Source: Phycicoccus flavus (lineage in GTDB: Bacteria > Actinomycetota > Actinomycetes > Actinomycetales > Dermatophilaceae). Taken from it: 64,000 bases of DNA. The position numbers and the translations under genes are program-made. Location: contig NZ_SAYU02000015.1 in the NCBI RefSeq assembly GCF_004025965.2, positions 1-64,000 on the forward strand, given 5' to 3'. The notes below the pieces were generated by a model. That model was not told the DNA's origin and made no database searches. It saw nothing but the letters and a program-made list of their open reading frames with translations. Positions 1-56,861 of the stretch are shown piece after piece (the stretch's first letter is position 1; every line of letters begins with the position of its first letter).

Positions 1-2313
1 CGCTACCGGCTCGACGGCGACCGGCTCCAGCTGCTGGCCCACCACCTGCTCCTGGACGCGGACTCGCTCGCCGCCCTCGTCGCCGACCTCGACGGGCACC
101 TCGCGGGTCGGGACCCGGCCGCCGCGCCCGAGTGGCCGTGGGACCCGGCCGACGGCGGGGCACCCGGCCCCCGCCCCCTCCCGCAGCCCGCGGCCGGTGC
201 CGGCCTCTCGTCCGGCTCCGGCACGCCGTGCGGCGGAGAGCCGGTCCCGGCGCGTCGCCCGGCCCCGGGGACGCACGCGCACGCCCGCATCCCGTCCGAG
301 CACGCCGACCGGCTCGCCGCCGCGGCGCGGACCTGCGGCGTCACCCCGTTCGCCCTGCACTGGGCGGCCGCGGCCCGGGTCGCCGCCGCCACCGCGGGCC
401 CGGACGGCACGACGCTCGGTGCGGTCGTCAGCGAGCGGCTGATGCAGAGCCCGCCGCGTCGCAGCGGGAACGCGACCGCGCACCTGTCGGTGCGGATCGG
501 GGACCACGGCGGTGGCGCGGCACACGTGCGCGGCAGCTTCGAGGACTTCGTCGCGACGTGGCGGGGCCGGCGCGCCGCGGCGGGACCGGTACCCGACCAG
601 CTGCTCGTCTCGCTGGCCGCCGCCCCCTCCGCCCGGGGTCTGCAGCGGGTGCGGCGGGTGACCCTCGGGGACTACGTCGTCAAGTACCCGCGGCACGTCC
701 AGGTGCAGGTGGTGGGGGGTGAGGTCGTCGTCGAGGCCTACGCGGAGACCGGGGGTGGGGCGCTGCTCGCCGCACACCTGGACGCACTCGACGCCGTCGT
801 GGCCGAGTGCGTCGGAGGGGCCGCCCCGGTCGCTCCCGCGTCGGACGCTCCACCGGCCCTCGCGCTGTCGAGCACCGGACCGCCCGGGACGCCGGAGCCC
901 CTTGCTGCGGTCGACCGCGTCGTCGGGGCCGCACCGGACACCGCGCTGCGCGACCTCGGGATCACCTCGTTCGACGTCCTCACCCTGCTCGACGACCTCG
1001 GCCGGCGGTTCGGGCTGCGGGCCGGCGTCGAGGACTTCTACCGCTGGACGACGGCCGGGGAGGTCCAGGGCGCCGTCGCCGCGGTGGCGGCCGGACCCCG
1101 GCCCGCCCACCCCGACGGTCGCGGCCACGCGGCGGGTGGGACGGACGGGTCGGTCGAAGGCGTCGTCCTCCCGCACCTGCGCGACATCTTCGTCGACGCG
1201 GTCCGGCACGAGGCCGGCGACCCCTACGCCGTCGAGTGCGCCGTCGTCCTCGACCCGCGCGTGGTCACCACGGACGTCGACGCCGTCGCCGCCGCCCTGA
1301 CCCAGGTGCTTCGCCGGCACGACGGCCTCACCGCCGGGGTCGGCTTCGGGCCCGCGGGCGTGGAGCTGACGCCGGGAGCGGTCCCCGTGCCGGTCCGACG
1401 CGTCACCGCCGACCACTGGGACGAGGTGCGCGATCCCCGGCCGCTGCGCGTCCGCCGCCCGACGCACCTGGCGGACGTCGCCGTCTGCCGCGTCGGGGAC
1501 GAGGTGGGGGTGTACCTCGACGTCCACCACCTGCTGCTCGACGGCACCGGTCTCGGCGTCCTGCTCGAGGACCTGGCCCGCACGCTGCGGGGCGAGGACC
1601 CCGTCCCGGGTGCGCGCTGGTCCGAGGTCGCGCCCGCCCTGGCGCGCTCGCAGGCACGCGCCCGACAGGTCTGGGCCGATCTCCCGGCGCCCGCCGGCGC
1701 CCGCCCGGTGGGCCGGCCCGGGACGGTGCGCGGCGGCCACGTCCGGCACCGGGTGCCCTGGGGCCGGCGCGACGACGGGCCGTGGGACTTCGCCGACACC
1801 CTCGAGGACCTCACCGGGCTCGTCGCGGAGTTCACCGGCCAACGCCGTGGGGTGGTCGGCTCCGTGCACCACGGCCGGACCGTCCCGGGGGCGGACCGCC
1901 TCGTCGGGGGGCTGGCCCGCGTGCTGCCGGCGCACTTCGACCTCGACGACCCGCGGGTCGTCCGTGACACCGCCGCCCGGCTCCGGGCCGGCCAGGCGCT
2001 CACCGCCGCCGACCTGCCGGACGGCACCGTCGTCGGAGCGACGCGCGGCGAGCCGCTGCCCGTCGTCGTCCACGCCCTCCGGGACGACGGCTCCCTGCCC
2101 TCCGGGCTGTCGCGCCGGGTGGACTTCCCCGCCCTCACCAAGTTCGGCGTCCTGCTCACGCTGTGCGTCGGCGAGCGCGAGGACGTCCTCGAGGTCACCC
2201 TCTCGAGCGACCTCTACTCGGCCGCGGACGCCGACCGGCTCGCCGCGCTCGCCGCGGCCCACGACCCCGGCCGGCGGCGCCGCGCGCCCGAGCCGGTCCG
2301 GAGCGCCCCGTGA
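1..2313 (+). CDS. NRPS-type protein, C-carrier-C, 5' end outside window
   Basis: The reading frame is open from base 1, so the start lies left of the window; 770 codons are visible. The first visible domain is the middle and end of a condensation-type domain with the active-site variant HHLLLDADS (codons 14-22), where the usual HHxxxDG has DA in place of DG. A carrier domain follows, with LGITSFD and the phosphopantetheine serine near codon 323. A second condensation-type domain has an intact HHLLLDG at codons 509-515 and runs to the C terminus. No adenylation domain is visible. Such proteins join acyl or peptidyl groups held on carriers. The stop overlaps the GTG start of the next gene, so the two are co-transcribed. 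The order of domains is clear; the bond formed and the substrates are unknown. Confidence 0.8.
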   Translation, partial: RYRLDGDRLQLLAHHLLLDADSLAALVADLDGHLAGRDPAAAPEWPWDPADGGAPGPRPLPQPAAGAGLSSGSGTPCGGEPVPARRPAPGTHAHARIPSEHADRLAAAARTCGVTPFALHWAAAARVAAATAGPDGTTLGAVVSERLMQSPPRRSGNATAHLSVRIGDHGGGAAHVRGSFEDFVATWRGRRAAAGPVPDQLLVSLAAAPSARGLQRVRRVTLGDYVVKYPRHVQVQVVGGEVVVEAYAETGGGALLAAHLDALDAVVAECVGGAAPVAPASDAPPALALSSTGPPGTPEPLAAVDRVVGAAPDTALRDLGITSFDVLTLLDDLGRRFGLRAGVEDFYRWTTAGEVQGAVAAVAAGPRPAHPDGRGHAAGGTDGSVEGVVLPHLRDIFVDAVRHEAGDPYAVECAVVLDPRVVTTDVDAVAAALTQVLRRHDGLTAGVGFGPAGVELTPGAVPVPVRRVTADHWDEVRDPRPLRVRRPTHLADVAVCRVGDEVGVYLDVHHLLLDGTGLGVLLEDLARTLRGEDPVPGARWSEVAPALARSQARARQVWADLPAPAGARPVGRPGTVRGGHVRHRVPWGRRDDGPWDFADTLEDLTGLVAEFTGQRRGVVGSVHHGRTVPGADRLVGGLARVLPAHFDLDDPRVVRDTAARLRAGQALTAADLPDGTVVGATRGEPLPVVVHALRDDGSLPSGLSRRVDFPALTKFGVLLTLCVGEREDVLEVTLSSDLYSAADADRLAALAAAHDPGRRRRAPEPVRSAP

Positions 2314-3449
2314 CCACGGCCACGGCCACGACCACGCCGGCGCCGGGCGGGGTGACGGTGCCGATGACCGCGGTGCAGCGGCTGATGTTCGTCGCCCAGG
2401 GCCGCCCCGCCTACCGGCTGCCGTTCCTCTACCGGCTGCCCGACGACGCGGGCTCCGACTGGGCCCGGGACCGGCTGCACGGCCTGCTGCTCTCGAGCCC
2501 GGCGCTGCTGGCCCGCTTCGGCTACGACCCCGCGACCGACCGGTTCACCCAGCGCCACGCCCCCGAGCTCCTCGGCTCGCTCGAGGTCCCCGACGTCGGC
2601 GAGGTGGCGGACCCGGAGTCGGAGTGCGCCGACCCGGCCCACCAGCCCGACCTGCGCCGCGGCCTGCCGCTCACCGCGAGGTTCCTGCGCCACGGGGGCC
2701 GTCCGCTGCTCCATGTCGAGTACCACCACCTGGCGCTGGACGGCATCGGGGCGGCGGTGGTCGAGGAGCGCCTCCTCGGGCGGGTCGTGCCGGACCCGGA
2801 CGACCCCGCCGAGGCGTTCGCCGCCTACGAGCGGGTCGCCGCCGCCGAGCGCTCCCGCCCCGTCCGGCGTCCGCCCAGCACCCGTCCGGACCCGCCGCCG
2901 GCACCGGAGCCGCGGCTGCGCCGGGCCCACCGGGAGGTGGCGACCCATCAGGTGAGGAGCCGCGCGCGGGCCCTGCGGGTCTTCCCACGCGTCCTCCTCC
3001 AGGCCGCGGTCGAGGACTGGCTCGCCTCAAGGTGGCCGGGGACCGGCTACGCGTCGGTGTCGACCTGGCGGTGGACCCTCGGGCTCGAGGGCGCGGTGGG
3101 CAACCTGCCCGCCCTGCTCGCCCACGAGCCGCCGCCCGCGGCCGGCCACGCGGCGCTGGCCCGCGCCCTCATGGCCACCGGCGCCGACCCGACGATCGGC
3201 CCGGACCGGGTGCTCGCGGACCACGCCGACGTCGTCGTGTCCTACGAGGACTTCGGCTTCGCCCGCGGCCGCTACGTGCCGGTCGACACCCACCCCCGCT
3301 TCGGCCTCTACGTCCGGATCGTCGCCCGCCGGGATCTGGTCGAGCTGCACACCGAGACCGACCGGCGCCTCGTCGGCGACGACGACGCCGACTCCCTCCT
3401 CGACCACCTCGTCGAGGCGACCACGACCCCCCTCGAGGAGGACCGATGA
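2310..3449 (+). CDS. Free-standing condensation-domain-like protein
   Basis: This 379-residue protein is about the size of a single NRPS condensation domain and holds nothing else. HHLALDG at about residues 139-145 matches the catalytic HHxxxDG. The N-terminal stretch MTAVQRLMF resembles the start of condensation domains. The GTG start at 2310 overlaps the previous stop, and the next ATG overlaps this stop, so translation is probably coupled. A lone condensation domain must act in trans on carrier-bound partners, for example the A-PCP protein encoded next. It could make an amide or an ester bond, or act as an acyltransferase; the sequence does not decide. Confidence 0.72.
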   Translation: MTTATATTTPAPGGVTVPMTAVQRLMFVAQGRPAYRLPFLYRLPDDAGSDWARDRLHGLLLSSPALLARFGYDPATDRFTQRHAPELLGSLEVPDVGEVADPESECADPAHQPDLRRGLPLTARFLRHGGRPLLHVEYHHLALDGIGAAVVEERLLGRVVPDPDDPAEAFAAYERVAAAERSRPVRRPPSTRPDPPPAPEPRLRRAHREVATHQVRSRARALRVFPRVLLQAAVEDWLASRWPGTGYASVSTWRWTLGLEGAVGNLPALLAHEPPPAAGHAALARALMATGADPTIGPDRVLADHADVVVSYEDFGFARGRYVPVDTHPRFGLYVRIVARRDLVELHTETDRRLVGDDDADSLLDHLVEATTTPLEEDR

Positions 3450-5125
3450 CCGCCACCGCCGTCCCCACGTCCGCGGCACCGTCCCGCGGCACCGACCGGC
3501 CCGCCGGCGCGCCCACCGCCCCGGCCGGCCCGGTCTCCGAGCGGCTGACCGCCGCGACCGCCGGCCGCGGGGCCGAGACCGTGCTGCAGTCCGCCCGCGG
3601 CAGCTGGTCCGGCGCCGAGCTGGACCGCGTGACCCGGACGGTCGCCGCCGGCCTGCGGGCCATGGGCGCCGGCCGGGACACGGTGGTCGAGCTGCACACC
3701 GACGACCACGTCGAGGCCGTCGTCCTCATGGTCGCGACCCTGCGGGCCGGCGCCGCCTTCTGCGTCGTGCCGCCCTCGTACCCGCCCGCCCGGGTCGCGG
3801 CCATCCGGGCCCGGACCCGGCCGGTCGTCGTCCTCGACGGCCTCGCCGACGCCCTGGCCCTGCCCGGCGACCCCGACGCCGGGCTCCCGGTGCGCGGCGA
3901 CGACGACCTCGCGTACGTCATCTTCACCTCGGGCAGCACCGGCGACCCCAAGGCCGTCGAGATCACCGACCGGTGCGTGCGTCACCTCGCCGACCAGCCG
4001 GGCATCTACCCCGGCCGGACCGTCGCGCACCTGGCGGCCCTGCAGTTCGACGCCTGCATCTACGAGATCCTCGGGGGCCTGCTCAACGGCCTCACCGTCC
4101 GCGTCCTCGACACCGACGACGTCATGGACCGTCACCGTGCGCCCGTCGCGCTGAGGGGCGTCGACGTCCTGTTCGTCACCACCCAGGTGTTCAACCTCCT
4201 GGTCGACCGCTCGCCGGAGGCGCTGGACGCCGTCGAGCTCGTCGTCTTCGGGGGCGAGCGGGTCTCCCCCCGGCACGTGCGCGCCGCGCTCGGCCGCTGC
4301 CGGGTGGTCCACGCCTACGGCCCGACGGAGACGACGGTGTTCGCGACGCTGCACGAGGTGCAGGAGGTGCCCGACGGCGCCGACGTGCCGATCGGCACCG
4401 GGCTGGTCGGCTCCTGCCTCCACGTGCTCGCCGACGACGGGACCGAGGTCGTCCCCGGCGTCCCGGGAGAGCTCGTCATCGGTGGCACCGGCCTCATGCG
4501 CGGCTACCGCGACCAGCCGGAGGCCACGGCCGCCGCCCTCGTCGGGCTGCACGGCGCGCCGCACTACCGCTCGGGCGACCTCGTGACGGCCGACGCCGCC
4601 GGCGTCGTCACCTTCGTCGCGCGCAAGGACCGCCAGCTCAAGGTCTCCGGGCACCGGGTGGACCCGGCCGAGATCGAGCAGGAGGCGCTCGGCTACACCG
4701 CCCCGGACGGTCGCTCGGCGCGCAGCGCGCTCGTCGTCGGCGACGAGGGCCGGCTGCGCCTCTTCGTCACCGGGTGCACCGACCTGCGCGGACTGCGCGC
4801 CCACCTGCGGGCGCGGCTGCCGCGCTACCTCGTGCCGGTCGTCACGGCGGTGGGCTTCCTGCCGCTGACCCGCAACGGCAAGACCGACGTCACGGCCCTC
4901 CTGGCCCGCGCCCGCGCGACGACCCCGGCCGAGGAGCGGGCCCGCGAGGTGTTCGCCGCCGTCGTCCCGGAGATCGAGGACCCGGGTGCCACCTTCCTCG
5001 AGCTCGGCGGCGACTCGATCCTCGCCATGGACGCGGTCTGGCGCCTCGACGGGCTCGGGGTGCTCGTCGACATGGCGGCCCTGCTCACCGCGCCGCTGGA
5101 GGAGGTGCTGCGTGATGTCCGGTGA
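3446..5125 (+). CDS. Free-standing NRPS adenylation-PCP protein
   Basis: This 559-residue protein selects an amino or carboxylic acid, activates it with ATP and loads it on its own carrier. Visible adenylation motifs in order are FTSGSTGDPK (about residues 160-169), FDACIYE, YGPTETT, YRSGDLV, KVSGHRVDPAEIE and NGKTD. The carrier has FLELGGDSI with the pantetheine serine near residue 524. Manual alignment to GrsA gives a rough specificity code of D-A-Y-F-V-G-A-V-F. Asp235 is kept, so an alpha-amino acid is likely and the pocket looks hydrophobic, but no amino acid can be assigned. It has no condensation domain of its own and sits between two lone condensation proteins. Start and stop overlap both neighbours. 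Confidence 0.88.
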   Translation: MTATAVPTSAAPSRGTDRPAGAPTAPAGPVSERLTAATAGRGAETVLQSARGSWSGAELDRVTRTVAAGLRAMGAGRDTVVELHTDDHVEAVVLMVATLRAGAAFCVVPPSYPPARVAAIRARTRPVVVLDGLADALALPGDPDAGLPVRGDDDLAYVIFTSGSTGDPKAVEITDRCVRHLADQPGIYPGRTVAHLAALQFDACIYEILGGLLNGLTVRVLDTDDVMDRHRAPVALRGVDVLFVTTQVFNLLVDRSPEALDAVELVVFGGERVSPRHVRAALGRCRVVHAYGPTETTVFATLHEVQEVPDGADVPIGTGLVGSCLHVLADDGTEVVPGVPGELVIGGTGLMRGYRDQPEATAAALVGLHGAPHYRSGDLVTADAAGVVTFVARKDRQLKVSGHRVDPAEIEQEALGYTAPDGRSARSALVVGDEGRLRLFVTGCTDLRGLRAHLRARLPRYLVPVVTAVGFLPLTRNGKTDVTALLARARATTPAEERAREVFAAVVPEIEDPGATFLELGGDSILAMDAVWRLDGLGVLVDMAALLTAPLEEVLRDVR

Positions 5126-6404
5126 GCCCGCCGGGGTCGCCGGACCGGCCCCCGAGGTCACCGGCGCCGAGCGCGACGTCGTCGTGGCCTGCCTGGTCAG
5201 CGACGAGCCGGCGACGTACAACGTCCCGGTCCACGTCCGCTTCGAGAAGCCGGTCGACCCGGCCCGCCTGCGCGACGCGGTGGCGGCGGTCCTGGTGGCC
5301 TCGCCCACGCTGCGCCGGACCTACGTCCGCGACGGCCGCCGGATCCGTCGGGGTCCGGCCGCGACACCCGTGGTGGACCTGCTCCGGATCGCTCCCGCGG
5401 ACCTCGACACCGTCGCCCGGGCCCGCCGGGTGCGCGTCCTGGACCCCGTCCTCGTCCGGGCCGCGGTCTGCGAGGTCGCGTCGGGGACCGGTCCGCCGCA
5501 GGTCTGGCTGCACCTCAACGCCCACCACGCCCTCGTCGACGGCATCGGGCTGGTCCACGTCCTGCGGGCGGTGCTCGACACCTACCGCACCGGGACCCTC
5601 GTCGTCCCCGACGAGCCGTGCGCGCCCGAGGGGAGCGACCGGACCGTCCGTCCGGTGCGACCGTCCCCCGCGGCGCTGCCCGGACCGCGGGTCGACGCCG
5701 ACGTCGACGAGCGGTCGGCGCAGGCCTTCCTCGCCGCGCTCGCCGCCCTGCGGGTACCGGGGACGGGCGTCGGCGTCGTGCGGCGCGACCTCACCGTCCC
5801 GGGGACGCCGACCTACGCGAGCACCCTGGCCGCCCTCGTCCCCGCCCTCGGGCTCTGGTGCGACATCGACGTCGTCGTGGTCTCCTCGGGCCTGGCCGGG
5901 CGGACCCCGGCCGACGCCCGCGCCGTCGGCAGCTTCGTGCGGCTGGAGCCGCTGGCGCTCGACCTCGACGCCTGGGTCGACCTCGGCCCGCGGGAAGTGC
6001 TGGCCGGTGTGGGCCGGCTCGCGGCCACGCTCGCCCTGCGCTCCGTCGCGCCTGCGCCACCCCCTCGCCGCGGGTTGGTGCGGCGGGCCGAGGTCGGCGT
6101 GGTCCTGGACTACAAGCGCGAGTCCCTCGTCCCGCAGACGCTCGACGCGAGCCTCGGCGCGCACCTCGTCGAGGACGGAACCTACGTCGACTGCAAGTAC
6201 GACCTGCACGTCAGCGTCCACCAGACCGGAGCCGGGCAGCAGCTCACGCTCACGGGCCGCGACCTCCCGGTGTCCGTCCTGGGGCGTCTCGCGGATCTGT
6301 ACCTCCAGCAGCTGCGCCTCGGCGCGCTGCGCGCCCTTCCGGCGACGGGCCCCCTCGCCCGGCGCCACGACCCCGACCGACCGGCCGTGCCGGTGCCGGC
6401 CTGA
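5115..6404 (+). CDS. Second free-standing condensation-domain-like protein
   Basis: This 429-residue protein has the condensation motif as HHALVDG (about residues 137-143), with both histidines and the aspartate present. No carrier or adenylation domain is seen. GTG at 5112 is an equally possible start one codon upstream; both lie inside the last codons of the A-PCP gene. With the preceding lone condensation protein it flanks the A-PCP gene, so the pair may supply the two condensation steps around one amino acid unit. That role is inferred from gene order only. Confidence 0.7.
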   Translation: MSGEPAGVAGPAPEVTGAERDVVVACLVSDEPATYNVPVHVRFEKPVDPARLRDAVAAVLVASPTLRRTYVRDGRRIRRGPAATPVVDLLRIAPADLDTVARARRVRVLDPVLVRAAVCEVASGTGPPQVWLHLNAHHALVDGIGLVHVLRAVLDTYRTGTLVVPDEPCAPEGSDRTVRPVRPSPAALPGPRVDADVDERSAQAFLAALAALRVPGTGVGVVRRDLTVPGTPTYASTLAALVPALGLWCDIDVVVVSSGLAGRTPADARAVGSFVRLEPLALDLDAWVDLGPREVLAGVGRLAATLALRSVAPAPPPRRGLVRRAEVGVVLDYKRESLVPQTLDASLGAHLVEDGTYVDCKYDLHVSVHQTGAGQQLTLTGRDLPVSVLGRLADLYLQQLRLGALRALPATGPLARRHDPDRPAVPVPA

Positions 6405-6421
6405 CCACCCAGGAGCCCCCC

Positions 6422-6694
6422 GTGACCACATCGCCCGCCGTCCGGACCCTCACCCTCGACGAGGTCACCGACGACCTCGCCCGGATCGTCGGCACCCACG
6501 CCGACGGCGCCTGGGTCGCCCCCGACGACAACATCTTCGACCTCGGCGTGGACTCGATGAGCCTCGTGGAGATCAAGGAGGCCGTCGCCGAGCAGCTGGG
6601 GGTCGCCCTCACCTTCTCGGACTTCTTCACCCACTTCACCGTCGCCGACCTCGCGGCCGTCGTCCTCCAGCGGGCGGGGGAGGTCTCCCCGTGA
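6422..6694 (+). CDS. Free-standing acyl or peptidyl carrier protein
   Basis: This is a 90-residue single carrier. FDLGVDSMSL places the phosphopantetheine serine at about residue 45, and the sequence before and after fits the four-helix carrier fold. The GTG start has GGAG upstream. The stop overlaps the GTG of the acyltransferase gene, which suggests that the acyltransferase loads this carrier or works beside it. A discrete carrier is common in clusters where an acyltransferase works in trans. Confidence 0.88.
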   Translation: MTTSPAVRTLTLDEVTDDLARIVGTHADGAWVAPDDNIFDLGVDSMSLVEIKEAVAEQLGVALTFSDFFTHFTVADLAAVVLQRAGEVSP

Positions 6695-7860
6695 AGCTCA
6701 CCCTCCTGCTCTCCGGCCAGGGCGAGACCCCGGCCGCCGACACCGTGACGATGTGGCGGCACGACCCCGCCGCCCGGGCGGTCTGGACCGAGGCCGCCGA
6801 CGCGGTCGGCGAGCCGCTGGACCGCTGGCTCGACGAGGGCACCCCCGCCGACACCCGCCGGGCCCAGCTCCTGAGCGCGGTCGGCTCGCTCGCCACCTAC
6901 GCCGTCGTCGCCCGGGAGATCCCGGTCGCCCCGACGTTCGTCGTCGGGCACAGCGTCGGCGAAGTCGCCGCGCTCGGCATCGCCCACGGGCTGGGCCCGG
7001 CGCAGGTCGCCCGCATCGCCGAGGCCCGGGGCCGCGCCATGCTCGACGCCGTGGCCGCCGGCCCCCCGACGGGCATGCGGGCCGTCGTCGACCCGCCCGC
7101 CGACCTCGTCGGGCTCGTCGAGGCCGCCGAGGGGGTCCACGTCGCGAACCTCAACTCCGCACGCCAGGTCGTCATCAGCGGCAGCCTGGCCGGGCTGGAC
7201 GCGTTCGTCGCCGCCACCGGGCTGCGCACCGTCCCGCTCGCGGTGACCGGGGCCTTCCACACGCCGTACATGGCGCCGGCCGCGGCGGCGCTGCGCTCCG
7301 CCCTCGACGGTCTCGAGCTGCCGCCCACCTACGGCCCGACCGTCGTCGCGAACCGCACCGCGCTGCCCTACGACCGCACCGACGTGCTCGCCGAGCTCGC
7401 GGCGCAGGTCGTCTCCCCGGTCCGCTGGGCCGAGGCCGTCGGGTACGCGCACGACCACGGCAGCCAGGTGATGCTCGACCTGTCCTCCACCGGGATGCTC
7501 GCGCGGATGTCCGACCTCCCGGGCGTCACGGTCCACCGCTGCGGCACGCCGGACGGCATCGACGCCGGCCGCCGCGAGCTGCGGCACGTCATCGCCGTCG
7601 AGGGCGAGTACGACCTCGCGGCCCGGGCCCTCGGGGCCATCGTCACCACCCGCAACCTCCAGGACGACGAGGAGCTGTACCGCACGACGGTCATCCCCGC
7701 CTACCAGGAGCTGCGCGGGATGGCGAAGTCGGCGCACGCCCCGGTCGAGCGGATCCTCGAGCTCGTCGAGACCGTGCTCGTCGCCAAGGCCGTCGACCCC
7801 GCCACCCGTGAGCGCAAGCTCGCCGACCTGCGCTGGCGGGCCGCGCGGGCCGCGGCCTGA
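6691..7860 (+). CDS. Discrete (trans-acting) malonyl-type acyltransferase
   Basis: This 389-residue protein is a FabD/PKS-type acyltransferase. GHSVGE has the nucleophile Ser88, and GAFHTPYM is the second conserved block, of the form common in malonyl-specific enzymes. The two PKS proteins downstream have no internal AT, so this enzyme is the obvious source of their extender units. FabD-like proteins usually end near residue 310; this one continues for about 90 residues of charged helical sequence with no motif I recognise, perhaps for docking. The start is a GTG overlapping the carrier gene. Malonyl specificity is likely, not proven. Confidence 0.87.
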   Translation: MKLTLLLSGQGETPAADTVTMWRHDPAARAVWTEAADAVGEPLDRWLDEGTPADTRRAQLLSAVGSLATYAVVAREIPVAPTFVVGHSVGEVAALGIAHGLGPAQVARIAEARGRAMLDAVAAGPPTGMRAVVDPPADLVGLVEAAEGVHVANLNSARQVVISGSLAGLDAFVAATGLRTVPLAVTGAFHTPYMAPAAAALRSALDGLELPPTYGPTVVANRTALPYDRTDVLAELAAQVVSPVRWAEAVGYAHDHGSQVMLDLSSTGMLARMSDLPGVTVHRCGTPDGIDAGRRELRHVIAVEGEYDLAARALGAIVTTRNLQDDEELYRTTVIPAYQELRGMAKSAHAPVERILELVETVLVAKAVDPATRERKLADLRWRAARAAA

Positions 7861-7878
7861 GAGGACCGGAGCACCCCC

Positions 7879-16118: not shown

Positions 16119-16121
16119 CCC

Positions 16122-17426
16122 GTGAGCGCTGCACCCCACGAGGCGGCCGGCCGCCGCGTCCGCCGCCGGCACCCCCGCACCGCCGTCATCACCGACGTCG
16201 CCGAGGTCTACCCGGTGGCCGGCCGGGCCGAGGCCGAGCAGCGCGCCGACGAGGGCGAGCGGATCTGGGCCGACCGGGTGGCCGGGCTCAACCGCAACCT
16301 GGCCGCCGTCGGCGGGCCCGCGCTCGCCGCCGGCCCCGCGTTCCGCGGTGTCTTCTTCCGCGACCCGGAGGCCGAGCTGCCGGTCGGCTGTCTCGCCGAG
16401 GTGCCCGCCGCCTTCGTCACCACCGCCGAGCGGGTCTCGCTGCACCTGGCCGAGACGCTCATCGAGCGGGCCGGGCCGCTGCCGGCCACCCTGCACCTGT
16501 CGACGGCCGACCCGGAGGAGGACCTCTCCAAGCCGACCTTCGTCGCCTCGACGGGGATCCCGGTCGGCCCGGAGCTCGCCGACGCCGCCTTCGACCCCAT
16601 GGGCCTCTACCGGCGGCTGCCCCGGATCCGGCGCGGGTCGGTCGGACGGACCGTCGAGGCCTCGGCGTCGGGGCCGGTCGCGCTCATCGACGCGGTGAGC
16701 CGGATCGAGAACGGCAGCGGGACGGCCGGTGTCGTCACCTCCGCCAGCGGCAAGTCCATCCCCATCCCCTTCGAGGCGGTGCCGGTGGGCGCCGGCGCGG
16801 ACCGCACCCACGAGCCGTTCACCGACGGCGCCGCCGGGCACTACAACGCCGAGGGCGGGGTGGCGCTCCTGCTGCGCGAGGAGGAGTCGGCCCGGGCCGA
16901 CGGCGTCGCCGTCCTGGCCCGGGTGGCCGGGTACGCCTACGGCACCTTCGGCTCGTCGGTCGTCAACCGCCGTGTCGTCACCGACGTCGTGCTGCGGGCC
17001 CTGGCCGACGCGGAGGTCGACCCCGCCACCCCGGTGCTCGTCGACCTCTACGGCCGGGGGAACCGGATCGACGACGGCGCCGAGCTCTCGGCCATGGAGA
17101 AGGTCCGCGAGACCTACCCCGGGCTGGAGACGGCCTACCTCAAGGGCGGTCGGCACTACGTCATCGGCGCCCACGGCCTCCAGGGCCTGGTCCGGATGCT
17201 CGCCGCCCGGGCCGGGCGCACCCCCGTCCGCGACCTGGCGTCGCACCCGACGAGCGAGCTGCTCGCCGCCCGGCCGCTCCGCCACCTGACCGCCGACCCG
17301 GACGGCTTCACCACCGTCGTGTTCGTCGCGTACTCCGTCCACGGCAGCTGCGTCGCCGTGGTCCTCGACCTCTCCGACGCCGCCGGCGCCGGGGACGCCC
17401 CCCACCCGAAGGAGCAGGCCGCATGA
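16122..17426 (+). CDS. Ketosynthase-fold protein without catalytic residues
   Basis: This 434-residue protein keeps the rhythm of a ketosynthase but not its chemistry. The place of DTACSSS reads VEASASGPVALIDAV, with no cysteine. The HGTGT block reads VDLYGRGNRIDDGAEL, with no histidine. The third block reads LKGGRHYVIGAHGLQGLV, close in shape to KxNxGHxxxAAG. EGGVALLL and the C-terminal YSVHGSCVAVVL also fit the thiolase fold. Likely roles are a structural partner of an active KS (like a chain-length factor) or a decarboxylating or docking subunit. It starts with GTG four bases after the second PKS gene and overlaps the thioesterase gene. The fold call rests on spaced motif matches only. Confidence 0.65.
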   Translation: MSAAPHEAAGRRVRRRHPRTAVITDVAEVYPVAGRAEAEQRADEGERIWADRVAGLNRNLAAVGGPALAAGPAFRGVFFRDPEAELPVGCLAEVPAAFVTTAERVSLHLAETLIERAGPLPATLHLSTADPEEDLSKPTFVASTGIPVGPELADAAFDPMGLYRRLPRIRRGSVGRTVEASASGPVALIDAVSRIENGSGTAGVVTSASGKSIPIPFEAVPVGAGADRTHEPFTDGAAGHYNAEGGVALLLREEESARADGVAVLARVAGYAYGTFGSSVVNRRVVTDVVLRALADAEVDPATPVLVDLYGRGNRIDDGAELSAMEKVRETYPGLETAYLKGGRHYVIGAHGLQGLVRMLAARAGRTPVRDLASHPTSELLAARPLRHLTADPDGFTTVVFVAYSVHGSCVAVVLDLSDAAGAGDAPHPKEQAA

Positions 17427-18166
17427 CCCCCGTCGACCTCGTGTGCCTGCCGTTCGCCGGCGCGCACATGGACCCCTTCCACGCCCTGCGGCGCGAGTGC
17501 GAGAGCGCCGTCCCGGGCCTGGCCTCGATGACCGTCACCTACCCGGGCCACGGCGGCCGGGTGCACGGCGCGCTCGCGCCGACCATCCTCGAGATGGCGC
17601 ACGACGCGCTCGGCGAGATCGACGAGCACCGGGCCCGCCGCGGGTCCGGCCACCGCGAGACCGTGCTGCTCGGCTACAGCATGGGCGGCTACGTCGCCTA
17701 CGAGCTGGCGCACCTGCTGGCGGACCGGGGCGAGCCCCCGGTCCGGCTCCTCGCCATGGCGGCGACGCCTCCGGCGCACCTGGACGGCACCGACCTCGAC
17801 CTCGGCACCGACGACGAGCTGCTCGAGCACTGCGCGCAGTACGGCCTCGTCTCGCCGGGATCCTTCCCCGAGGGGACGATGCGGCGGCTGTTCCTGCCCG
17901 CGCTGCGCAACGACATCCTCGCCGTCGACCGGTACCCGACCGCGCGCGGGCGGCGGCCGCTGCCCGCCGCCACCGAGCTCGTCGTCTTCACCGGCGCCCA
18001 CGACGCCACCGTCGCCCACCAGGACCGCTGGGCCGACCTCACCGCCGCCCCGCCCCGGACCCACGTCTACGACGGTGGGCACTTCTTCGTCACCGAGTGC
18101 CGCGACGCCCTCGTCCGCGACGTCGTGGCCCACCTCGGCACCCACCGCGAGAGGACCGCAGCATGA
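17423..18166 (+). CDS. Type II thioesterase
   Basis: This 247-residue alpha/beta hydrolase has the start LVCLPFAGAHMDPF and the nucleophile elbow GYSMGG with Ser86. The catalytic histidine is His220 in GGHFFV. These are the hallmarks of the editing thioesterases of NRPS/PKS clusters, which remove wrong or stalled acyl groups from carriers. No integrated releasing thioesterase is visible in the window, so either this enzyme or something left of the window releases the product. Start and stop overlap both neighbours. Confidence 0.9.
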   Translation: MTPVDLVCLPFAGAHMDPFHALRRECESAVPGLASMTVTYPGHGGRVHGALAPTILEMAHDALGEIDEHRARRGSGHRETVLLGYSMGGYVAYELAHLLADRGEPPVRLLAMAATPPAHLDGTDLDLGTDDELLEHCAQYGLVSPGSFPEGTMRRLFLPALRNDILAVDRYPTARGRRPLPAATELVVFTGAHDATVAHQDRWADLTAAPPRTHVYDGGHFFVTECRDALVRDVVAHLGTHRERTAA

Positions 18167-19800
18167 CCTCCTTCACGACCACCTTCCGAGCCGTCGTCGC
18201 CGCCCACGGCGACGCCGTGGCGCTGCGCGAGGACGCCCGCGAGCTCACCTACTCCGAGCTCGCGGCGCTGGCCGGCGGCTACCGGGACGCGATCCTGCGG
18301 CGCGGGCTGCGCCGGGGCCAGGTCGTCGTGCTCCAGCGGGAGCGCGGGATCGACGCCACGGCGGCGATGATCGGCATCCTCCTGGCCGGCGGCGCCTACA
18401 CCGTCATCGGCGAGGGCTACCCGCAGCACCGGCTGGCCGGGATGCTCGCCGCGCTGGACGTCGGGCTCGTGCTCGACGCGGACGTCGTCCCCGACCCCCC
18501 GACGCCCGACGCCGGCCGCGACGTCCCGCGCACCGCGGAGGACCTCATGTACGTGATCTTCACGTCGGGCACCACCTCGGTGCCCAAGGCCGTGGGCGTC
18601 CCGGACCGGGCGGTGCTCCGGCTGCTCCGCGAGCCGCGGCTGGGGCTGCGACCCGGACGCCGCATCACCCACCTGTCGACCATCGAGTTCGACGCCTCCG
18701 TCGTGGAGCTGTGGGGCGGGCTGCTGTCGGGGATGACGGTCGTCTGCGTCTCCTCGCGCCAGGTGCTCGACCCGTTCGTCATGTTCGACCTCATCGAGTT
18801 CGGCGCCGACGTCATGTGGATGACGAGCTCGCTGTTCAACTTCTTCGTCGACCGCCGCCCGGAGGCCTTCGCGGGCCTGGAGCGGGTCATCGTCGGCGGG
18901 GAGGCGCTGAGCCTGCACCACGTCAACCTGGCCCTGCCCTACGTCACGGTCGTCAACGGCTACGGCCCGACCGAGAACACGGTGTTCACGACGCTGGACG
19001 TCATGGACGGCGCGAGCGTGCCCGCGATCGCCATCGGCACCCCCGTCGCCGGCACCGACGTCCTCGTCGTCGACGAGGACGGCCGCCCGGCCAGGCACGG
19101 GGAGCTGCTCGCGCTCGGCGACGGCCTCGCCGTCGGGTACGTCAACGACCCGGCCAAGACCGCGGCGAGCTTCGTCGACGTCGGCGGCCGGCGTGCGTAC
19201 CGCACCGGCGACCACGTGACGGTGCGCGAGGACGGCCGCCTCGCCTTCGAGGGCCGGGTCGACTCCCAGGTCAAGGTGAGCGGCTACCGCATCGACCTCC
19301 AGGAGGTCGAGAACGCGTTCCTCCAGTGCGGCGCCGGGACCGCCAAGGCCTTCGTCGACGACGGCAAGGTCGTCGTGGCCGTCACCCGCGTGGGCGACGC
19401 GCTGCGCCCGCTCGTCGCGGAGTACCTGCCCGCCTTCATGCAGCCGCGGGCCATCCTCCTCGTCGACGCCATCCCGCTCATGCCGAGCGGCAAGGCCGAC
19501 GTGCGGGCGCTGCGGGCGGCGACCTCCGCCCCGGGCCTTCTCACCCCGGCCGGCCCGTCGGCCGCCGCGCCGGCTCCCGCGGCCACCGGGATCCGCGAGC
19601 TGGTCGCGGCGCACCTCGGGGCCCCGGTCCCCGCCGAGGCCGACAACCTCTTCGCCCTCGGGCTGGACTCGATCGCCCTGTGGAAGGTGGTCGCGGCCGT
19701 CAACGACGCCCACGGACTCGAGCTCAGCCTCTTCGACGTCCTCGACGACCCGACGATCAGCGCCCTCGAGGCGCTCGTCCCCACCGCGCTGGCCGCCTGA
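18163..19800 (+). CDS. Second free-standing NRPS adenylation-PCP protein
   Basis: This 545-residue protein has adenylation motifs FTSGTTSVPK (from about residue 133), FDASVVE, YGPTENT, YRTGDHV, KVSGYRIDLQEVE and PSGKAD, then a carrier with FALGLDSIAL and Ser503. Manual alignment to GrsA gives a rough code D-A-V-W-V-G-G-V-F, different from the first A-PCP protein, so two different building blocks are likely. Asp235 suggests an alpha-amino acid. The substrate cannot be named. The ATG overlaps the thioesterase stop. The condensation partner must be one of the separate C proteins. Confidence 0.88.
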   Translation: MTSFTTTFRAVVAAHGDAVALREDARELTYSELAALAGGYRDAILRRGLRRGQVVVLQRERGIDATAAMIGILLAGGAYTVIGEGYPQHRLAGMLAALDVGLVLDADVVPDPPTPDAGRDVPRTAEDLMYVIFTSGTTSVPKAVGVPDRAVLRLLREPRLGLRPGRRITHLSTIEFDASVVELWGGLLSGMTVVCVSSRQVLDPFVMFDLIEFGADVMWMTSSLFNFFVDRRPEAFAGLERVIVGGEALSLHHVNLALPYVTVVNGYGPTENTVFTTLDVMDGASVPAIAIGTPVAGTDVLVVDEDGRPARHGELLALGDGLAVGYVNDPAKTAASFVDVGGRRAYRTGDHVTVREDGRLAFEGRVDSQVKVSGYRIDLQEVENAFLQCGAGTAKAFVDDGKVVVAVTRVGDALRPLVAEYLPAFMQPRAILLVDAIPLMPSGKADVRALRAATSAPGLLTPAGPSAAAPAPAATGIRELVAAHLGAPVPAEADNLFALGLDSIALWKVVAAVNDAHGLELSLFDVLDDPTISALEALVPTALAA

Positions 19801-19834
19801 GCCGGCCACCACCCCCGACCCCCCAGGAGCACCC

Positions 19835-20338
19835 ATGAGCACGACGATCACCCGGTCGGTCCGGCTGGACCTGCCGCTCGCCGCGGTCGCGGACCTGCTG
19901 CGCACGCCCGAGCACGCCGTCCGGCGGCTGGAGGCCGCCGGCCGCGAGGACCCCGTCCTCGTCCGCTTCGCCGGGAGCGGGGACGGGGTCCGCATCGAGA
20001 CCCGCTACTTCGGCCGCCGCGACGAGCTGCCCGGCTGGATGGCCTCCCGCTTCCCGCAGCACGGCCCGGAGAACCACCGGACCGAGGTCTGGACGCTCGG
20101 CCCGGCCACCCTCACCGCCGTCGTCGTCGTCGAGTCCGTCGAAGGGCGCGGCGGGGTGCGCGGCACCTACACGGTGGTCCCCGAGGGCGAGGGCTGCCGC
20201 TGGGAGCTCGCCGCCGAGGTCTCGGTCCCGCTGCCCGTCATCGGCCGCAGGGTCGAGAAGGTCGTGGCCGCGACCGCCGCCCGGGTGCACGCCGGCGAGG
20301 CCGCCGCCATGACCGCCGGCGCTGTCCGGATCCGCTGA
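19835..20338 (+). CDS. DUF2505-like SRPBCC-fold protein
   Basis: This 167-residue protein resembles the actinobacterial DUF2505 family, a START/SRPBCC-type fold with a hydrophobic cavity. The pattern is a beta-rich core (ITRSVRLDLPLAAVADLL at the start, GTYTVVPEG in the middle) and a long C-terminal helix beginning VPLPVIGRRVEKVV. No signal peptide or catalytic motif is seen. It lies 34 bases after the A-PCP gene with CAGGAG before its ATG, inside the operon. A role in binding or handling the hydrophobic product is possible but not shown. DUF2505 proteins also occur outside such clusters. Confidence 0.6.
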   Translation: MSTTITRSVRLDLPLAAVADLLRTPEHAVRRLEAAGREDPVLVRFAGSGDGVRIETRYFGRRDELPGWMASRFPQHGPENHRTEVWTLGPATLTAVVVVESVEGRGGVRGTYTVVPEGEGCRWELAAEVSVPLPVIGRRVEKVVAATAARVHAGEAAAMTAGAVRIR

Positions 20339-20400
20339 CCGCGGGGTCTTCTCCCCAGGACCACTGTCAGCCCACGTCTCTCACCCCAAGGGGACCGCGC

Positions 20401-21318
20401 ATGCCCACTGCACTCGAGTGCCGGAACGTGTCCTTCCGCTACCACAAGCGACGCCCCGTCCTCGACGGCGTCACCTTCGCCGTCGAGCGGGGCCAGATCT
20501 TCGGCCTCCTCGGCCCCAACGGCGCCGGCAAGTCGACCCTCGTGAAGATCCTCCTCGGTCTCAACCGGGCCGGGGAGGGCAGCGTCACCTGGTTCGGCGA
20601 GCCGCTCACCACCCGCACCCGCCGGCGCATCGGCTACGTCCCGCAGGACCTGGCCCTGCTCTACGACCTGTCGGCCCACGACAACGTCCGCTTCTTCGGG
20701 CGCCTCAACGGGATGTCCGGCAAGCACCTCGAGGAGCGCACCCGCACGGTGCTCGACTTCGTCGGGCTGTGGGACGAGCGCGGCAAGCAGCCCGGCGAGT
20801 ACTCGGGCGGGATGAAGCGCCGGCTGAACATCGCCTGCGGCATCGTCCACGACCCCGACGTCGTCATCATGGACGAGCCCACCGTCGGTGTGGACCCGCA
20901 GTCGCGCAACCACATCCTGGAGTCCATCGAGACCCTGCGCGACCAGGGCACGACGGTCGTCTACATCTCCCACTACATGGAGGAGGTGGAGCGGCTCTGC
21001 ACGACGATCGGGGTCATCGACGAGGGCACCTACCTCTGCGGCGGCACCCTCGAGGAGCTGCTGCACGCCCACGCGCCGGAGGCCATCGTCGACCTCGAGC
21101 TGACGACGGGCACGACGGTGGACGCCGACGACCTCGCCGGGCTGGAGATCCTCGAGCAGCGGTCCGGGGGCGTGAGCGTCTCGGTCCCCGAGGGCCAGCT
21201 GGACGTCATGCGGCTCATCGCCGACCGCTTCGACGACAAGGTCCAGCGCTTCACCTACATCCCGCCGAACCTGGAGCAGGTCTTCTTCCGGCTGACCAAG
21301 AAGGCGCTGAGGGACTGA
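20401..21318 (+). CDS. ABC exporter ATPase, DrrA-like
   Basis: This 305-residue protein is the ATP-binding half of an exporter. Walker A is GPNGAGKST with Lys44, the Q loop is YVPQDL, the signature is YSGGMKRRL (about 134-142), Walker B is VVIMDEPTVGVDP with Asp158 and Glu159, and the H loop is YISHYMEEVE. The extra C-terminal part of about 90 residues is typical of antibiotic and polyketide exporters of the DrrA group. The two permease genes follow with 2-base spacing and then overlap. Its likely role is export of, or self-protection from, the cluster's product. Confidence 0.93.
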   Translation: MPTALECRNVSFRYHKRRPVLDGVTFAVERGQIFGLLGPNGAGKSTLVKILLGLNRAGEGSVTWFGEPLTTRTRRRIGYVPQDLALLYDLSAHDNVRFFGRLNGMSGKHLEERTRTVLDFVGLWDERGKQPGEYSGGMKRRLNIACGIVHDPDVVIMDEPTVGVDPQSRNHILESIETLRDQGTTVVYISHYMEEVERLCTTIGVIDEGTYLCGGTLEELLHAHAPEAIVDLELTTGTTVDADDLAGLEILEQRSGGVSVSVPEGQLDVMRLIADRFDDKVQRFTYIPPNLEQVFFRLTKKALRD

Positions 21319-21320
21319 CC

Positions 21321-22442
21321 GTGACCGCCATCGTCCTGTCCTCGATGCGCCGCAAGCTGACCAACCGCTCGGTGCTGCTCAACCTCGTCGTCATGCCGTT
21401 GCTCCTCATCGTCATCCTCGGCAACGCCCTCGCCTCGACGTTCACGTCCGAGACCCACGCGAGCACCGCCACCCACGAGACCTCGCTCGGCGTGGTCGAC
21501 CTCGACTCCTCGGCCGGCAGCAGAGCCCTCGTCGCGTCCCTCGCGGCGAGCGGCGCCTTCGCCGTCCACGCCTACCCGAGCGTCGACACCGGGCGCGGCG
21601 CGCTGTCCGCCGGCGACGTCGACGTCCTCGCGACCGTGCCCTCCGGCTACGGCAGCGACCTGGCGGACGGCACCGCGCCGACCGTCGGCCTCACCGCCCT
21701 GGACTCCCAGGTCGACCGGCTGGCCGCGGCGCAGGTGGCGCTGGACACCGTCGGCGACGCGGCCCGGGCGCAGGCGGCCACGGGGCGCGCCCACCCCCCG
21801 GCGTACACCCTGGGCGACTACGTCGGCAGCGGCACCCCGACGAGCACCGACCCCGCGGCCGGCGTCACCGGCATCACCTACTACACGGTGACGATGCTCG
21901 TCCTCATCCTCCTGTACGGCCTCGGCAACACGATGAACTTCGTCAAGGAGGAGTACGACGGCCCGCTGGGCGACCGCTACCTCGCCTCGCCGACCGGGAC
22001 CCTGCAGCTCGTCGCCGCCCAGGTGGTCTCGGGGACCCTCACCTCGGCCATCCAGGGCGGGGTCGTCGTCGGCGCCGCGGTGGCGCTGTTCGGTGCCGAC
22101 CTCGGGCACAGCCCGCTCGTCGTCGCCGCGATCGTCGCCGTCGCCGCGGTGCTCTTCAACGTCCTCGGCCTCTTCCTCGGGCTGCTCGGCCGCAGCCGGC
22201 CGTGGCTGGACCCGCTGGTCTCCCTGCTCATCCCGGTGATGACCTTCCTCGGTGGCGGCTTCGTCAAGCTCGACACCGGGCGGCTCCAGGACCTCACCGT
22301 CAACCACGTCTTCCAGTCGGCGCTCTTCCGGGAGGTCTCCGGCATCCGGCCGGACTGGTCCCCGCTGCTCACCTGCCTCGCGCTGAGCGGTGCGGTCTTC
22401 CTGGCCTCGGCCGTCATGGTCCGCCGGGTGGGGGTGCGATGA
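21321..22442 (+). CDS. ABC-2 type exporter permease
   Basis: This 373-residue membrane protein has one N-terminal membrane segment (about 20-40, VVMPLLLIVILGNALAS), then an outside domain of about 150 residues, then five or so segments in the second half. This is the layout of ABC-2 permeases. It begins with GTG two bases after the ATPase gene, and its stop overlaps the ATG of the second permease, so the ATPase and two permeases should form one transporter. Confidence 0.9.
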   Translation: MTAIVLSSMRRKLTNRSVLLNLVVMPLLLIVILGNALASTFTSETHASTATHETSLGVVDLDSSAGSRALVASLAASGAFAVHAYPSVDTGRGALSAGDVDVLATVPSGYGSDLADGTAPTVGLTALDSQVDRLAAAQVALDTVGDAARAQAATGRAHPPAYTLGDYVGSGTPTSTDPAAGVTGITYYTVTMLVLILLYGLGNTMNFVKEEYDGPLGDRYLASPTGTLQLVAAQVVSGTLTSAIQGGVVVGAAVALFGADLGHSPLVVAAIVAVAAVLFNVLGLFLGLLGRSRPWLDPLVSLLIPVMTFLGGGFVKLDTGRLQDLTVNHVFQSALFREVSGIRPDWSPLLTCLALSGAVFLASAVMVRRVGVR

Positions 22443-23545
22443 CGATGAGCGTCTTCCTCCTCTACGCCCGCCGGCTGCTCAAGCGTCCCTTCGCCCTGCT
22501 CGTCGCCGTCGTCATGCCGCTCGTGCTCGTCCAGGGCGTGGTGCTGCAGTACGAGAACGCCACGAAGCTCACCGTCGCGGTGTCCGTGCCGGACCCGACG
22601 TTCGCCCGCTTCGTCGAGGGCCGCCTCGACGCCGCCGGGGTCGAGCACACGACCGTGGCGGTCGCGGACCGGTCCTCGGCGGCGGGCGTGCTCGTCGCCG
22701 TCGACGGCACCCCGGCCGAGGTCGCCGGCCACCCGGACGCCCTGGACGCCCACGTCGACCAGGGGAGCGTGTCCGCCAACGGCGTCCTCCTCGCGACCCG
22801 GCTCGACAGCATCGTCTCGACGCTGGCCTACCTGGCCGGCACCACCCACACCGCCCAGGGCCTCGAGCGCGCCCTGGACCGGTACGACGCCGCGCCGGCC
22901 CCGGTGCGCACGTCGACGCAGGTGCTCGGCAATCCGCAGCGCACCGTCCTGCAGTCCTCGTTCAACATGATCGTCTTCGTCATGCTCCTGCTGACGATGA
23001 GCAACATCCTCGTGTTCCTCAAGGACAAGCAGATGACGACGACCCAGCGGATCCTCGTCGCCACCCGCAGCACCCTCACCTACTACCTGCAGCTCGTCGC
23101 GCTGTTCGCGCTCGTCGCCGTCGCCGAGTTCCTCCTCATGGTCGCGGCCATGCGCTGGGTCTTCCACGTCCCGGTGGGCCTGTCCCCCGGCCGCGGCGCG
23201 CTGCTCGTGCTCGCCTACGCCCTCTTCAACGTCGTCGCCATCAGCGTCGGGCTGCTCCTCGTGAGCCGCACCGAGAAGGAGTCGGTGGGACGCCTGCTCG
23301 TCACCGCCGTCACCCTGCCGGCGGCCATGCTCGGCGGCGCCCTGTGGCCGCTCACGATCATGCCGACGTGGATGCAGCAGGTGGCGCAGGTGCTGCCGAC
23401 GACGTGGGTCACCCAGCTGAACGGCACGTTGTTCAGCGGCTTCACCCCCCCGACCTGGGACCTCGTGCGGCCGTTGCTGCTGCTGGGGGTCCTCGCCGTG
23501 GTCCTGTTCACCGCCCTGTCCCGGCTGCCCTCCGAGAGGGTCTGA
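22439..23545 (+). CDS. Second ABC-2 type exporter permease
   Basis: This 368-residue membrane protein has the same layout as its neighbour: a membrane segment at about 13-33, a soluble outer domain, and a cluster of hydrophobic segments from about residue 170 to the C terminus. The ATG overlaps the stop of the first permease. With the DrrA-like ATPase it probably forms a heterodimeric exporter. Confidence 0.9.
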   Translation: MTMSVFLLYARRLLKRPFALLVAVVMPLVLVQGVVLQYENATKLTVAVSVPDPTFARFVEGRLDAAGVEHTTVAVADRSSAAGVLVAVDGTPAEVAGHPDALDAHVDQGSVSANGVLLATRLDSIVSTLAYLAGTTHTAQGLERALDRYDAAPAPVRTSTQVLGNPQRTVLQSSFNMIVFVMLLLTMSNILVFLKDKQMTTTQRILVATRSTLTYYLQLVALFALVAVAEFLLMVAAMRWVFHVPVGLSPGRGALLVLAYALFNVVAISVGLLLVSRTEKESVGRLLVTAVTLPAAMLGGALWPLTIMPTWMQQVAQVLPTTWVTQLNGTLFSGFTPPTWDLVRPLLLLGVLAVVLFTALSRLPSERV

Positions 23546-23576
23546 CGCCGGTCCCCACCACCCGAAGGAGAAGCAC

Positions 23577-23789
23577 GTGAACCCTCGCATCATCCGCGCC
23601 ATCGGCTCGGCCCTCGTCGTCCTCGGCTTCGGCTCCCCGTTCATGCGGCAGGCCGGCTTCGACACCGTCCTCACCGCCTGGATGGGCCCGGCCCAACCGT
23701 GGTCCGGCATCTGCATGGGAGTCGTCGGCCTCGTCCTGGCCGTCGTCGGCACTCGCTGGATGAACGCGGCGGCCGTCGCCACCGACTGA
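23577..23789 (+). CDS. Small two-helix membrane protein
   Basis: This 70-residue protein starts with GTG behind CGAAGGAGAAGC. It has two hydrophobic segments (about 7-22 and 44-60) joined by a short polar loop. I do not recognise the family. It is the last gene of the biosynthetic operon, 31 bases after the second permease, so it may assist the exporter or act in resistance. A strong hairpin follows. Confidence 0.6.
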   Translation: MNPRIIRAIGSALVVLGFGSPFMRQAGFDTVLTAWMGPAQPWSGICMGVVGLVLAVVGTRWMNAAAVATD

Positions 23790-24235: not shown

Positions 24236-24541
24236 TCAGGCAGCCCGGAGGACGGGCTGGGGGTGCCGGACGAGGACGACCGCCACGACGGCGGCGTCCC
24301 CGTTCTCGCGGACGTGGGCGCGCACGGTGCGACAGCCCCTCTCGCGCGCGAACGAGGCGAGCGGCTCGAGCAGCTCGACCCACACCTCGCGGTCGACGAC
24401 CTCGACCCGGACCAGGTCCAGGCGGGCCAGGGCGGGCCCGGGGTCCAGGGCGTCCACGGTGAGCCGGCGCACGGCGGCGGTGATGCTCGACCCGCGCGGC
24501 ACCGGCGCGGCGTGCACGCGCACGCCGCCCCCGGTGTTCAC
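24236..24541 (-). CDS. Unknown 101-residue protein, co-operonic with a carrier
   Basis: I do not recognise this protein. It is short and soluble, with no signal peptide or membrane segment. Its middle holds alternating hydrophobic and acidic residues (LVRVEVVDREVWVELLEPL) that suggest a small alpha/beta fold. The GTG start overlaps the stop of the carrier gene by four bases, so the two are translated together. A partner or modifier of that carrier is a reasonable guess. Confidence 0.55.
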   Translation of the reverse strand: MNTGGGVRVHAAPVPRGSSITAAVRRLTVDALDPGPALARLDLVRVEVVDREVWVELLEPLASFARERGCRTVRAHVRENGDAAVVAVVLVRHPQPVLRAA

Positions 24542-24966
24542 CGGGCCCCCTCGGGCCGGACGCCGGCGTGCCGCTCCAGGGCGGACGCTAGGGCCCCCAC
24601 GGTGGCGATGCCGGGCAGGTCGGCGACCGGGACCGGGTCGGGCAGGAGGTCGGCCCGGGCGGGCGGGAGCACCGCGGCCAGGCGGGCCCGGCCGGCGTCG
24701 GTGACGCGGCCGTCGGGCCGGGAGAAGTCACCGGCGGGCAGCTCGCCGCGCAGGAGGTCGGCGAGGTCGTCGAACGGGCGGTCGAGCCCGAAGGCCTCCT
24801 CGAGCCGGAAGAGGATCTCGACGAGGTCGAACGACGACGCGCCGAGGGCGTCCACGAGGGTGTCGACGGCCCCGACGGCCCCGACGGGCAGGTCGAGCGT
24901 CGTCGCGACGGTCGCGCGGACGACGGCGAGGGCCCGGTCGCCCGGGCTCGTGCTGGGGTCGGTCAC
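24538..24966 (-). CDS. Carrier protein with C-terminal extension
   Basis: The first 85 or so of 142 residues fit an acyl carrier protein. LGASSFDLVEILFRLEEAFG carries the pantetheine serine (Ser45), with Ser44 where Asp is usual. The remaining 55 residues are rich in Pro, Ala and Leu and have no motif I know. It starts with GTG behind GGAGCGGAGC. It stands on the opposite strand from the main cluster, close to a phosphopantetheinyl transferase that could activate it. The partner enzymes are not in its own operon. Confidence 0.78.
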   Translation of the reverse strand: MTDPSTSPGDRALAVVRATVATTLDLPVGAVGAVDTLVDALGASSFDLVEILFRLEEAFGLDRPFDDLADLLRGELPAGDFSRPDGRVTDAGRARLAAVLPPARADLLPDPVPVADLPGIATVGALASALERHAGVRPEGAR

Positions 24967-29527: not shown

Positions 29528-29581
29528 CGATCTCCACCAACCCATGCGGCGCAGGCTAGTAGTGCAGAAGGGAGAGCGCCC

Positions 29582-33755
<4,174 letters not shown>

Positions 33756-46999: not shown

Positions 47000-47002
47000 C
47001 GG

Positions 47003-56837: not shown

Positions 56838-56861
56838 GGACCGTTCCAGCAAGGAGGCTCG

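Follow-up and report, generated by a model that had tools for sequence, protein, structure and literature searches.

Dissociated and trans-AT assembly lines

Trans-acyltransferase (trans-AT) polyketide synthases (PKSs) and dissociated assemblies of nonribosomal peptide synthetase (NRPS) and PKS proteins are already known; what is new in the gene cluster described here is its combination of parts, together with a pseudo-ketosynthase. The cluster opens a 64,000-nucleotide stretch of Phycicoccus flavus DNA (the window: bases 1-64000 of the 65,544-base contig NZ_SAYU02000015.1, here C57, from a genome of 4.26 Mb in 153 contigs; window G+C 72.6%). Judged from its sequence, it is probably an orphan trans-AT NRPS-PKS, highly dissociated, whose product would be a small N-acyl peptide that is exported.

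The pepstatin (pep) pathway of Streptomyces catenulae is called highly dissociated in excerpts of its published account, which describe an 18.3-kb cluster of ten genes (PMC12081711). A protein of condensation-peptidyl carrier-condensation layout (C-PCP-C) lacks cognate adenylation (A) domains there, and its loading in trans has been proposed. The same excerpts list a ketosynthase-AT-acyl carrier protein (KS-AT-ACP) PKS, whose AT is termed truncated in another section, a stand-alone A protein, a stand-alone PCP protein, an F420H2-dependent reductase and a LuxR-like regulator (PMC12081711). Compared by these descriptions, both clusters are actinobacterial, highly dissociated NRPS-PKS systems with a C-PCP-C protein without cognate A domain and a LuxR-like regulator. 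The P. flavus cluster, however, has 20 genes. Its two KS-dehydratase-ketoreductase-ACP (KS-DH-KR-ACP) proteins lack an AT, which is encoded separately; two proteins combine A with PCP, two others consist of a lone C domain, and a pseudo-KS and an ATP-binding cassette (ABC) exporter are also present.

Two general statements in the original prediction for this DNA, made before any database search, need qualification. That NRPS domains are rarely so dispersed is not supported as stated, strong dispersal having an actinobacterial precedent in the excerpted pep cluster (PMC12081711). Nor is the view that trans-AT systems are known mainly from other phyla, as excerpts of the literature report Streptomyces examples for hangtaimycin and the largimycins. 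The P. flavus cluster shares with trans-AT PKSs its AT-less KS modules and in-cluster AT, but its PKS part amounts to just two single-module proteins, whose KSs stand in clades of their own. Andrimid-type NRPS-PKS systems likewise have discrete C, A and KS parts but come from a different phylum and have a different gene set.

Architecture of the cluster

The core consists of 15 closely spaced plus-strand genes, g1-g15, at window positions 1-23545 (Table 1). Downstream lie genes for a second discrete ACP (ACP2), an extracytoplasmic function (ECF)-type sigma factor, a 4'-phosphopantetheinyl transferase (PPTase), an ACP3-like protein and a LuxR-type regulator, bringing the whole to about 20 genes and 29 kb. 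A block ending at 23789 had been proposed; instead, the coding block stops at 23545 and the cluster resumes, to about 28850. The operon does continue to the left, as predicted, but by only some 297 bp: a second contig, C147, overlaps window 1-1984 end to end (97.8% identity over 1984 bp). On that contig g1 probably begins 99 codons left of the window, roughly 113 bp past an HSP90-like gene. Because this overlap is not 100% identical, it suggests strain variation, or mixed strains, in the assembly. Overlapping junctions, also predicted, number 8 of 14 in the core as first called and 7 of 14 once g5 is started at its likely GTG (6422, not 6404).

The split NRPS-PKS with AT-less modules that had been read from the sequence is supported. 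Pfam finds no AT domain in either KS-DH-KR-ACP protein (g7 and g8), and the discrete AT (g6), the discrete ACP (g5) and both A-PCP proteins (g3 and g11) are each matched by the expected families. The KS Cys/His/His residues of g7 and g8, and the KR Tyr, are conserved in the P. flavus cluster and in the two related clusters described below, and g6 lies between g5 and g7 in all three. For a remnant of the KS-AT linker (PF16197) behind the KS, as sought in trans-AT PKSs, the outcome is mixed: 34.8 bits in g8, just over the cut-off of 33, and 26.5 in g7, below it. The g6 protein matches MAT/FabD and DisD in the PDB, and its GAFH motif is one that we take to be malonyl-type. No beta-branching cassette or enoylreductase appears among the Pfam matches of the cluster proteins, and ten core proteins searched against NCBIfam gave no match above cut-off.

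The NRPS parts are equally scattered, with the two or more lone condensation proteins of the original prediction recovered as g4, by Pfam, and g2, for which no Pfam family was found. A profile of the three g2 orthologs matches the LgrA C domain among solved C domains (1.2e-6), and its HHxxxD motif is invariant in all three. In g1, Pfam marks a carrier domain (PP-binding, residues 311-355) and the second C domain (Condensation, 490-528) but has no match for the first; each half of the ortholog profile matches solved C domains (9.7e-7 and 1.2e-4). In all three clusters HHxxxD is retained by both C domains of g1 and by those of g2 and g4, four in all. The selectivity code of the g3 A domain, read from motif-anchored columns, is DAYFVGAVFK, with DAYFLGVVFK in both relatives; that of g11 is DAVWIGGVFK, with DAIWLGGVFK and DAYWVGGVFK in the relatives. 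Code positions follow what we take to be GrsA numbering, and in the code table used g3 presumably resembles Ile/Leu (branched aliphatic) codes and g11 Val codes. The codes, of like type in all three clusters, suggest Ile/Leu for g3 and Val for g11. Beyond the original prediction come the C-PCP-C arrangement of g1 and the likeness of g9 to ketosynthases, besides genes for a thioesterase, a DUF2505 protein and the exporter.

Ketosynthase relationships

Of 53 KS stretches found, four shorter than 395 aa were left out, giving a 49-row tree: 16 rows with an AT behind the KS, 25 counted as without AT, 2 unassigned and 6 of our own. Thiomarinol, bacillomycin and Methylosinus sequences served as trans-AT references, and Enterobacter KSs whose next domain was out of view were counted as AT-less because their cluster has its own FabD. 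The g7 KSs form one clade and the g8 KSs another, each long-branched with 100/100 support. The KS phylogeny proposed as a check places neither within the actinobacterial cis-AT clade (100/100), whose 13 rows come from two Streptomyces plasmids; the grouping with a cis-AT family that would have refuted the original prediction was thus not seen. The g7 KS is drawn beside bacillomycin-type trans-AT KSs (93/45) in a tree with a weak backbone. Plasmid searches with g7, g8 and g11, which served for choosing references, gave no match of at least 60% identity.

Among single-domain PDB matches, PksL is nearest to the g8 KS (291 bits), a further likeness to trans-AT PKSs, and the g7 KS gives a mix of cis-AT and AT-less enzymes, led by mycocerosic acid synthase (175 bits) and an AT-less KS (173 bits). 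A still higher score of g8 to 7zma, which we take to be a Brevibacillus trans-AT bimodule, was rejected as a sign of closeness: its 495 bits combine two KS domains of 237 and 244 bits, neither of which reaches the PksL score.

The oddest part of the cluster is g9. No Pfam family was found for it, and a profile matches PDB ketosynthases at 1.8e-9. At the catalytic columns the three orthologs have Ala/Tyr/Tyr in place of Cys/His/His; among the 49 comparison KSs, the Cys column and the second His column are invariant, and the first His column has His in 46. A Ser adjoins the Ala, and a Cys-to-Ser KS was considered and rejected, as the joint alignment sets Ala in the Cys column with Ser beside it; the exact register there is uncertain because of a one-residue gap. 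An AlphaFold model of g9 had a mean pLDDT of 38 and was not used. From these residues, g9 is most likely a non-catalytic KS homologue that serves a KS as partner or scaffold, in the manner of a chain length factor (CLF). More speculatively, and possible rather than probable, the cluster may represent a distinct, fully dissociated trans-AT NRPS-PKS family in which the dead g9 would pair with an AT-less KS of type I and set chain length or substrate choice, leading to a new acyl-Val/Ile peptide scaffold.

Proposed pathway and alternatives

From the gene content, motifs and synteny, and from the lack of AT in the modules, a probable order of modules, kind of product and mode of release can be proposed. 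The PPTase would arm the carrier proteins, and g6 would place malonyl groups on the ACPs of g7 and g8, perhaps also on g5. These two KS-KR-(DH) proteins would assemble an acyl chain that is short and either reduced or unsaturated, most likely with g9 as CLF-like partner or scaffold. Amino acids would be activated by g3 (Ile/Leu-like) and g11 (Val-like), one of which may load the PCP of the A-less g1 in trans, and the four C domains would couple acyl and aminoacyl groups between proteins. The g10 thioesterase could proofread or release, g13-g15 would export the product, and the sigma factor and LuxR-type protein would control the pathway. The comparisons led to no product assignment, and a new product is possible.

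Several observations weigh against this scheme. By NCBIfam, g6 is no nearer to trans-ATs than to FabD or MdcH, and its Curtobacterium counterpart carries GHSVGQ and an altered GAFH motif. The DH motifs are atypical in all three clusters (HxxxGxxxxP without Pro, DxxxQ without Gln), so that dehydration is doubtful. The weak deeper backbone of the tree gives the KSs no firm place among trans-AT KSs, and the searched stretches of Curtobacterium yielded no match to any of the five downstream genes. The first of these points bears on a different account of the same genes, in which g7 and g8 are degenerate cis-AT modules that lost their ATs and are complemented by the host FabD, with g6 serving another purpose. 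The divergent g7 KS, with mycocerosic acid synthase as its best single-domain PDB match, would suit that account, as would the best NCBIfam matches of g6, MdcH and FabD, both under cut-off. Yet g6 keeps its place within the operon in all three clusters and the KSs fall outside the actinobacterial cis-AT clade, and we consider such degeneration very unlikely.

Two other schemes change the product. In an andrimid-like one, an unsaturated acyl chain would be built first and amino acids then added by discrete C domains; an AT-less dissociated PKS, a Val-type A domain and lone C proteins would all fit andrimid by their layout. No aminomutase or transglutaminase is among the Pfam matches, however, and we consider this scheme unlikely. 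The shared C-PCP-C protein, dispersed NRPS proteins, LuxR-type regulator and Val/Leu-type A domains could instead indicate a statine-type pathway as for pepstatin, where KS modules would add malonate to an aminoacyl chain to give beta-hydroxy-gamma-amino acid units and a protease-inhibitor-like peptide. This we regard as distinctly improbable: the excerpted pep system has a KS-AT-ACP PKS, stand-alone A and PCP proteins and an F420 reductase, whereas the modules here are AT-less KS-DH-KR-ACP proteins and no F420 enzyme occurs among the Pfam matches of the cluster proteins.

Conservation and rarity

All 15 core genes are collinear in a genome of another genus of the same family (G114; 40-76% identity) and in Curtobacterium sp. 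ISL-83 (29-65%). As gene order is kept across these genomes at 29-76% identity, chance is ruled out for the gene set and the cluster is a real, maintained, orphan pathway, though a rare one. All five downstream proteins also have matches in G114. With g9 as marker, 2 of 186 family genomes were positive, none of them among the 11 other same-genus genomes listed, as was 1 of 66 genomes in the genus Curtobacterium. At thresholds of 1e-20 or 1e-15, sampled genomes that overlap between searches gave 1 of 396 in the order, 1 of 394 in the class and 1 of 396 in the phylum, the single match being the own genome each time. Relaxed to 1e-3, the g9 search matched 13 of 149 family genomes, strongly only in P. 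flavus and G114; the others, at 2.1e-8 or worse, look like ordinary KSs. Scanning genome contigs with the g9 alignment found one relative, Curtobacterium, and with the g9 sequence alone none. Searches with g8 (1e-150; 1 of 198 order genomes) and with the G114 g1 (1e-10; 1 of 197 class genomes) each returned the own genome only. Among the literature matches listed, in excerpt, no like cluster in Curtobacterium appears, and an earlier description elsewhere is possible.

The pathway is compact and, though rare, conserved; it occurs in actinobacterial genera that are not the usual producers, and is small enough to be expressed entire. With almost all its parts on separate proteins, it would suit tests of in-trans recognition between carrier and condensation proteins, and also of the role that a KS lacking its catalytic residues plays alongside type I enzymes.

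Table 1. Predicted genes of the cluster, with window coordinates
Gene	Predicted product	Position	Strand	Basis
g1	NRPS C-PCP-C without cognate A	1..2313 (5' end about 297 bp left of window)	+	Pfam, ortholog profile; both HHxxxD invariant in 3/3 clusters
g2	Lone condensation-domain protein	2364..3449	+	Ortholog profile, HHxxxDG
g3	A-PCP	3446..5125	+	Pfam AMP-binding 3.2e-52, PP-binding 0.00012
g4	Lone condensation-domain protein	5115..6404	+	Pfam Condensation 2.6e-9; HHxxxDG 3/3
g5	Discrete ACP	6422..6694	+	Pfam PP-binding 2.4e-14; GTG start
g6	Discrete acyltransferase	6691..7860	+	Pfam Acyl_transf_1 2.1e-20; GHSVGE, GAFH
g7	AT-less KS-DH-KR-ACP	7879..11613	+	Pfam; KS Cys/His/His
g8	AT-less KS-DH-KR-ACP	11613..16118	+	Pfam; KS Cys/His/His
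g9	Pseudo-ketosynthase (most likely non-catalytic)	16122..17426	+	Profile match to PDB KSs; catalytic columns
g10	Stand-alone (type II) thioesterase	17423..18166	+	Pfam Thioesterase 9.4e-27
g11	A-PCP	18163..19800	+	Pfam AMP-binding 3.9e-52, PP-binding 1.8e-10
g12	DUF2505/SRPBCC-like protein	19835..20338	+	Pfam DUF2505 4.1e-21; conserved in both relatives
g13	ABC exporter ATPase	20401..21318	+	Pfam ABC_tran
g14	ABC-2 permease	21321..22442	+	Pfam ABC2_membrane_3
g15	ABC-2 permease	22439..23545	+	Pfam ABC2_membrane_3
ACP2	Discrete acyl carrier protein	24538..24966	-	Pfam PP-binding 5e-7; G114 match 40% over 91 aa
	ECF-type sigma-70 factor (start not fixed)	25079..25738	-	Pfam Sigma70_r2/r4; TIGR02937 above NCBIfam cut-off; G114 match 49%
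	4'-Phosphopantetheinyl transferase	25961..26743	-	Pfam ACPS 2.5e-15; G114 match 58%; ATG start
	ACP3-like protein (weak)	26746..27150	-	No Pfam match; 39.6% over 53 aa to G114 protein in same place; ATG start
	LuxR-type (GerE) regulator	27822..28850	+	Pfam GerE 5.8e-7; G114 match 55%

Genomic site and neighbouring genes

The cluster is flanked by the HSP90-like gene on C147 and by a second HSP90-like gene (window 29009-31345; Pfam HSP90), followed by gyrB; the two HSP90-like proteins are 34% identical to each other. In two same-genus genomes (G083 and G146), the gene order includes DUF721, enoyl-CoA hydratase, thermolysin-like protease, HSP90-like and gyrB genes, and in two others (G001 and G134) the stretch examined has no HSP90-like match; flanking gene names other than gyrA are ones we presume from the sequences. 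HSP90 was rejected as a cluster member because it occupies that place in 2 of 4 same-genus genomes while g9 has no same-genus match beyond its own genome; the G114 and Curtobacterium stretches also gave no match. The arrangement fits insertion of the cluster into a variable site; recF, gyrB and gyrA nearby suggest that the replication origin is close.

The Curtobacterium cluster (L034, 316-9546) adjoins genes that we take to resemble the kinase/penicillin-binding/RodA/phosphatase/FHA group, and may also lie near the origin, at a different site. Farther along the window, at 43382-50170, genes for a TrwC-type relaxase/helicase and for a large PLD/DEAD helicase (DUF3427) lie downstream of the tRNA-Ile and tRNA-Ala genes and are perhaps part of an integrated mobile element. 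Two further kinds of gene at 56559-59678, for a xylose isomerase-like TIM barrel and Cgl0159-like, may serve sugar or inositol catabolism.

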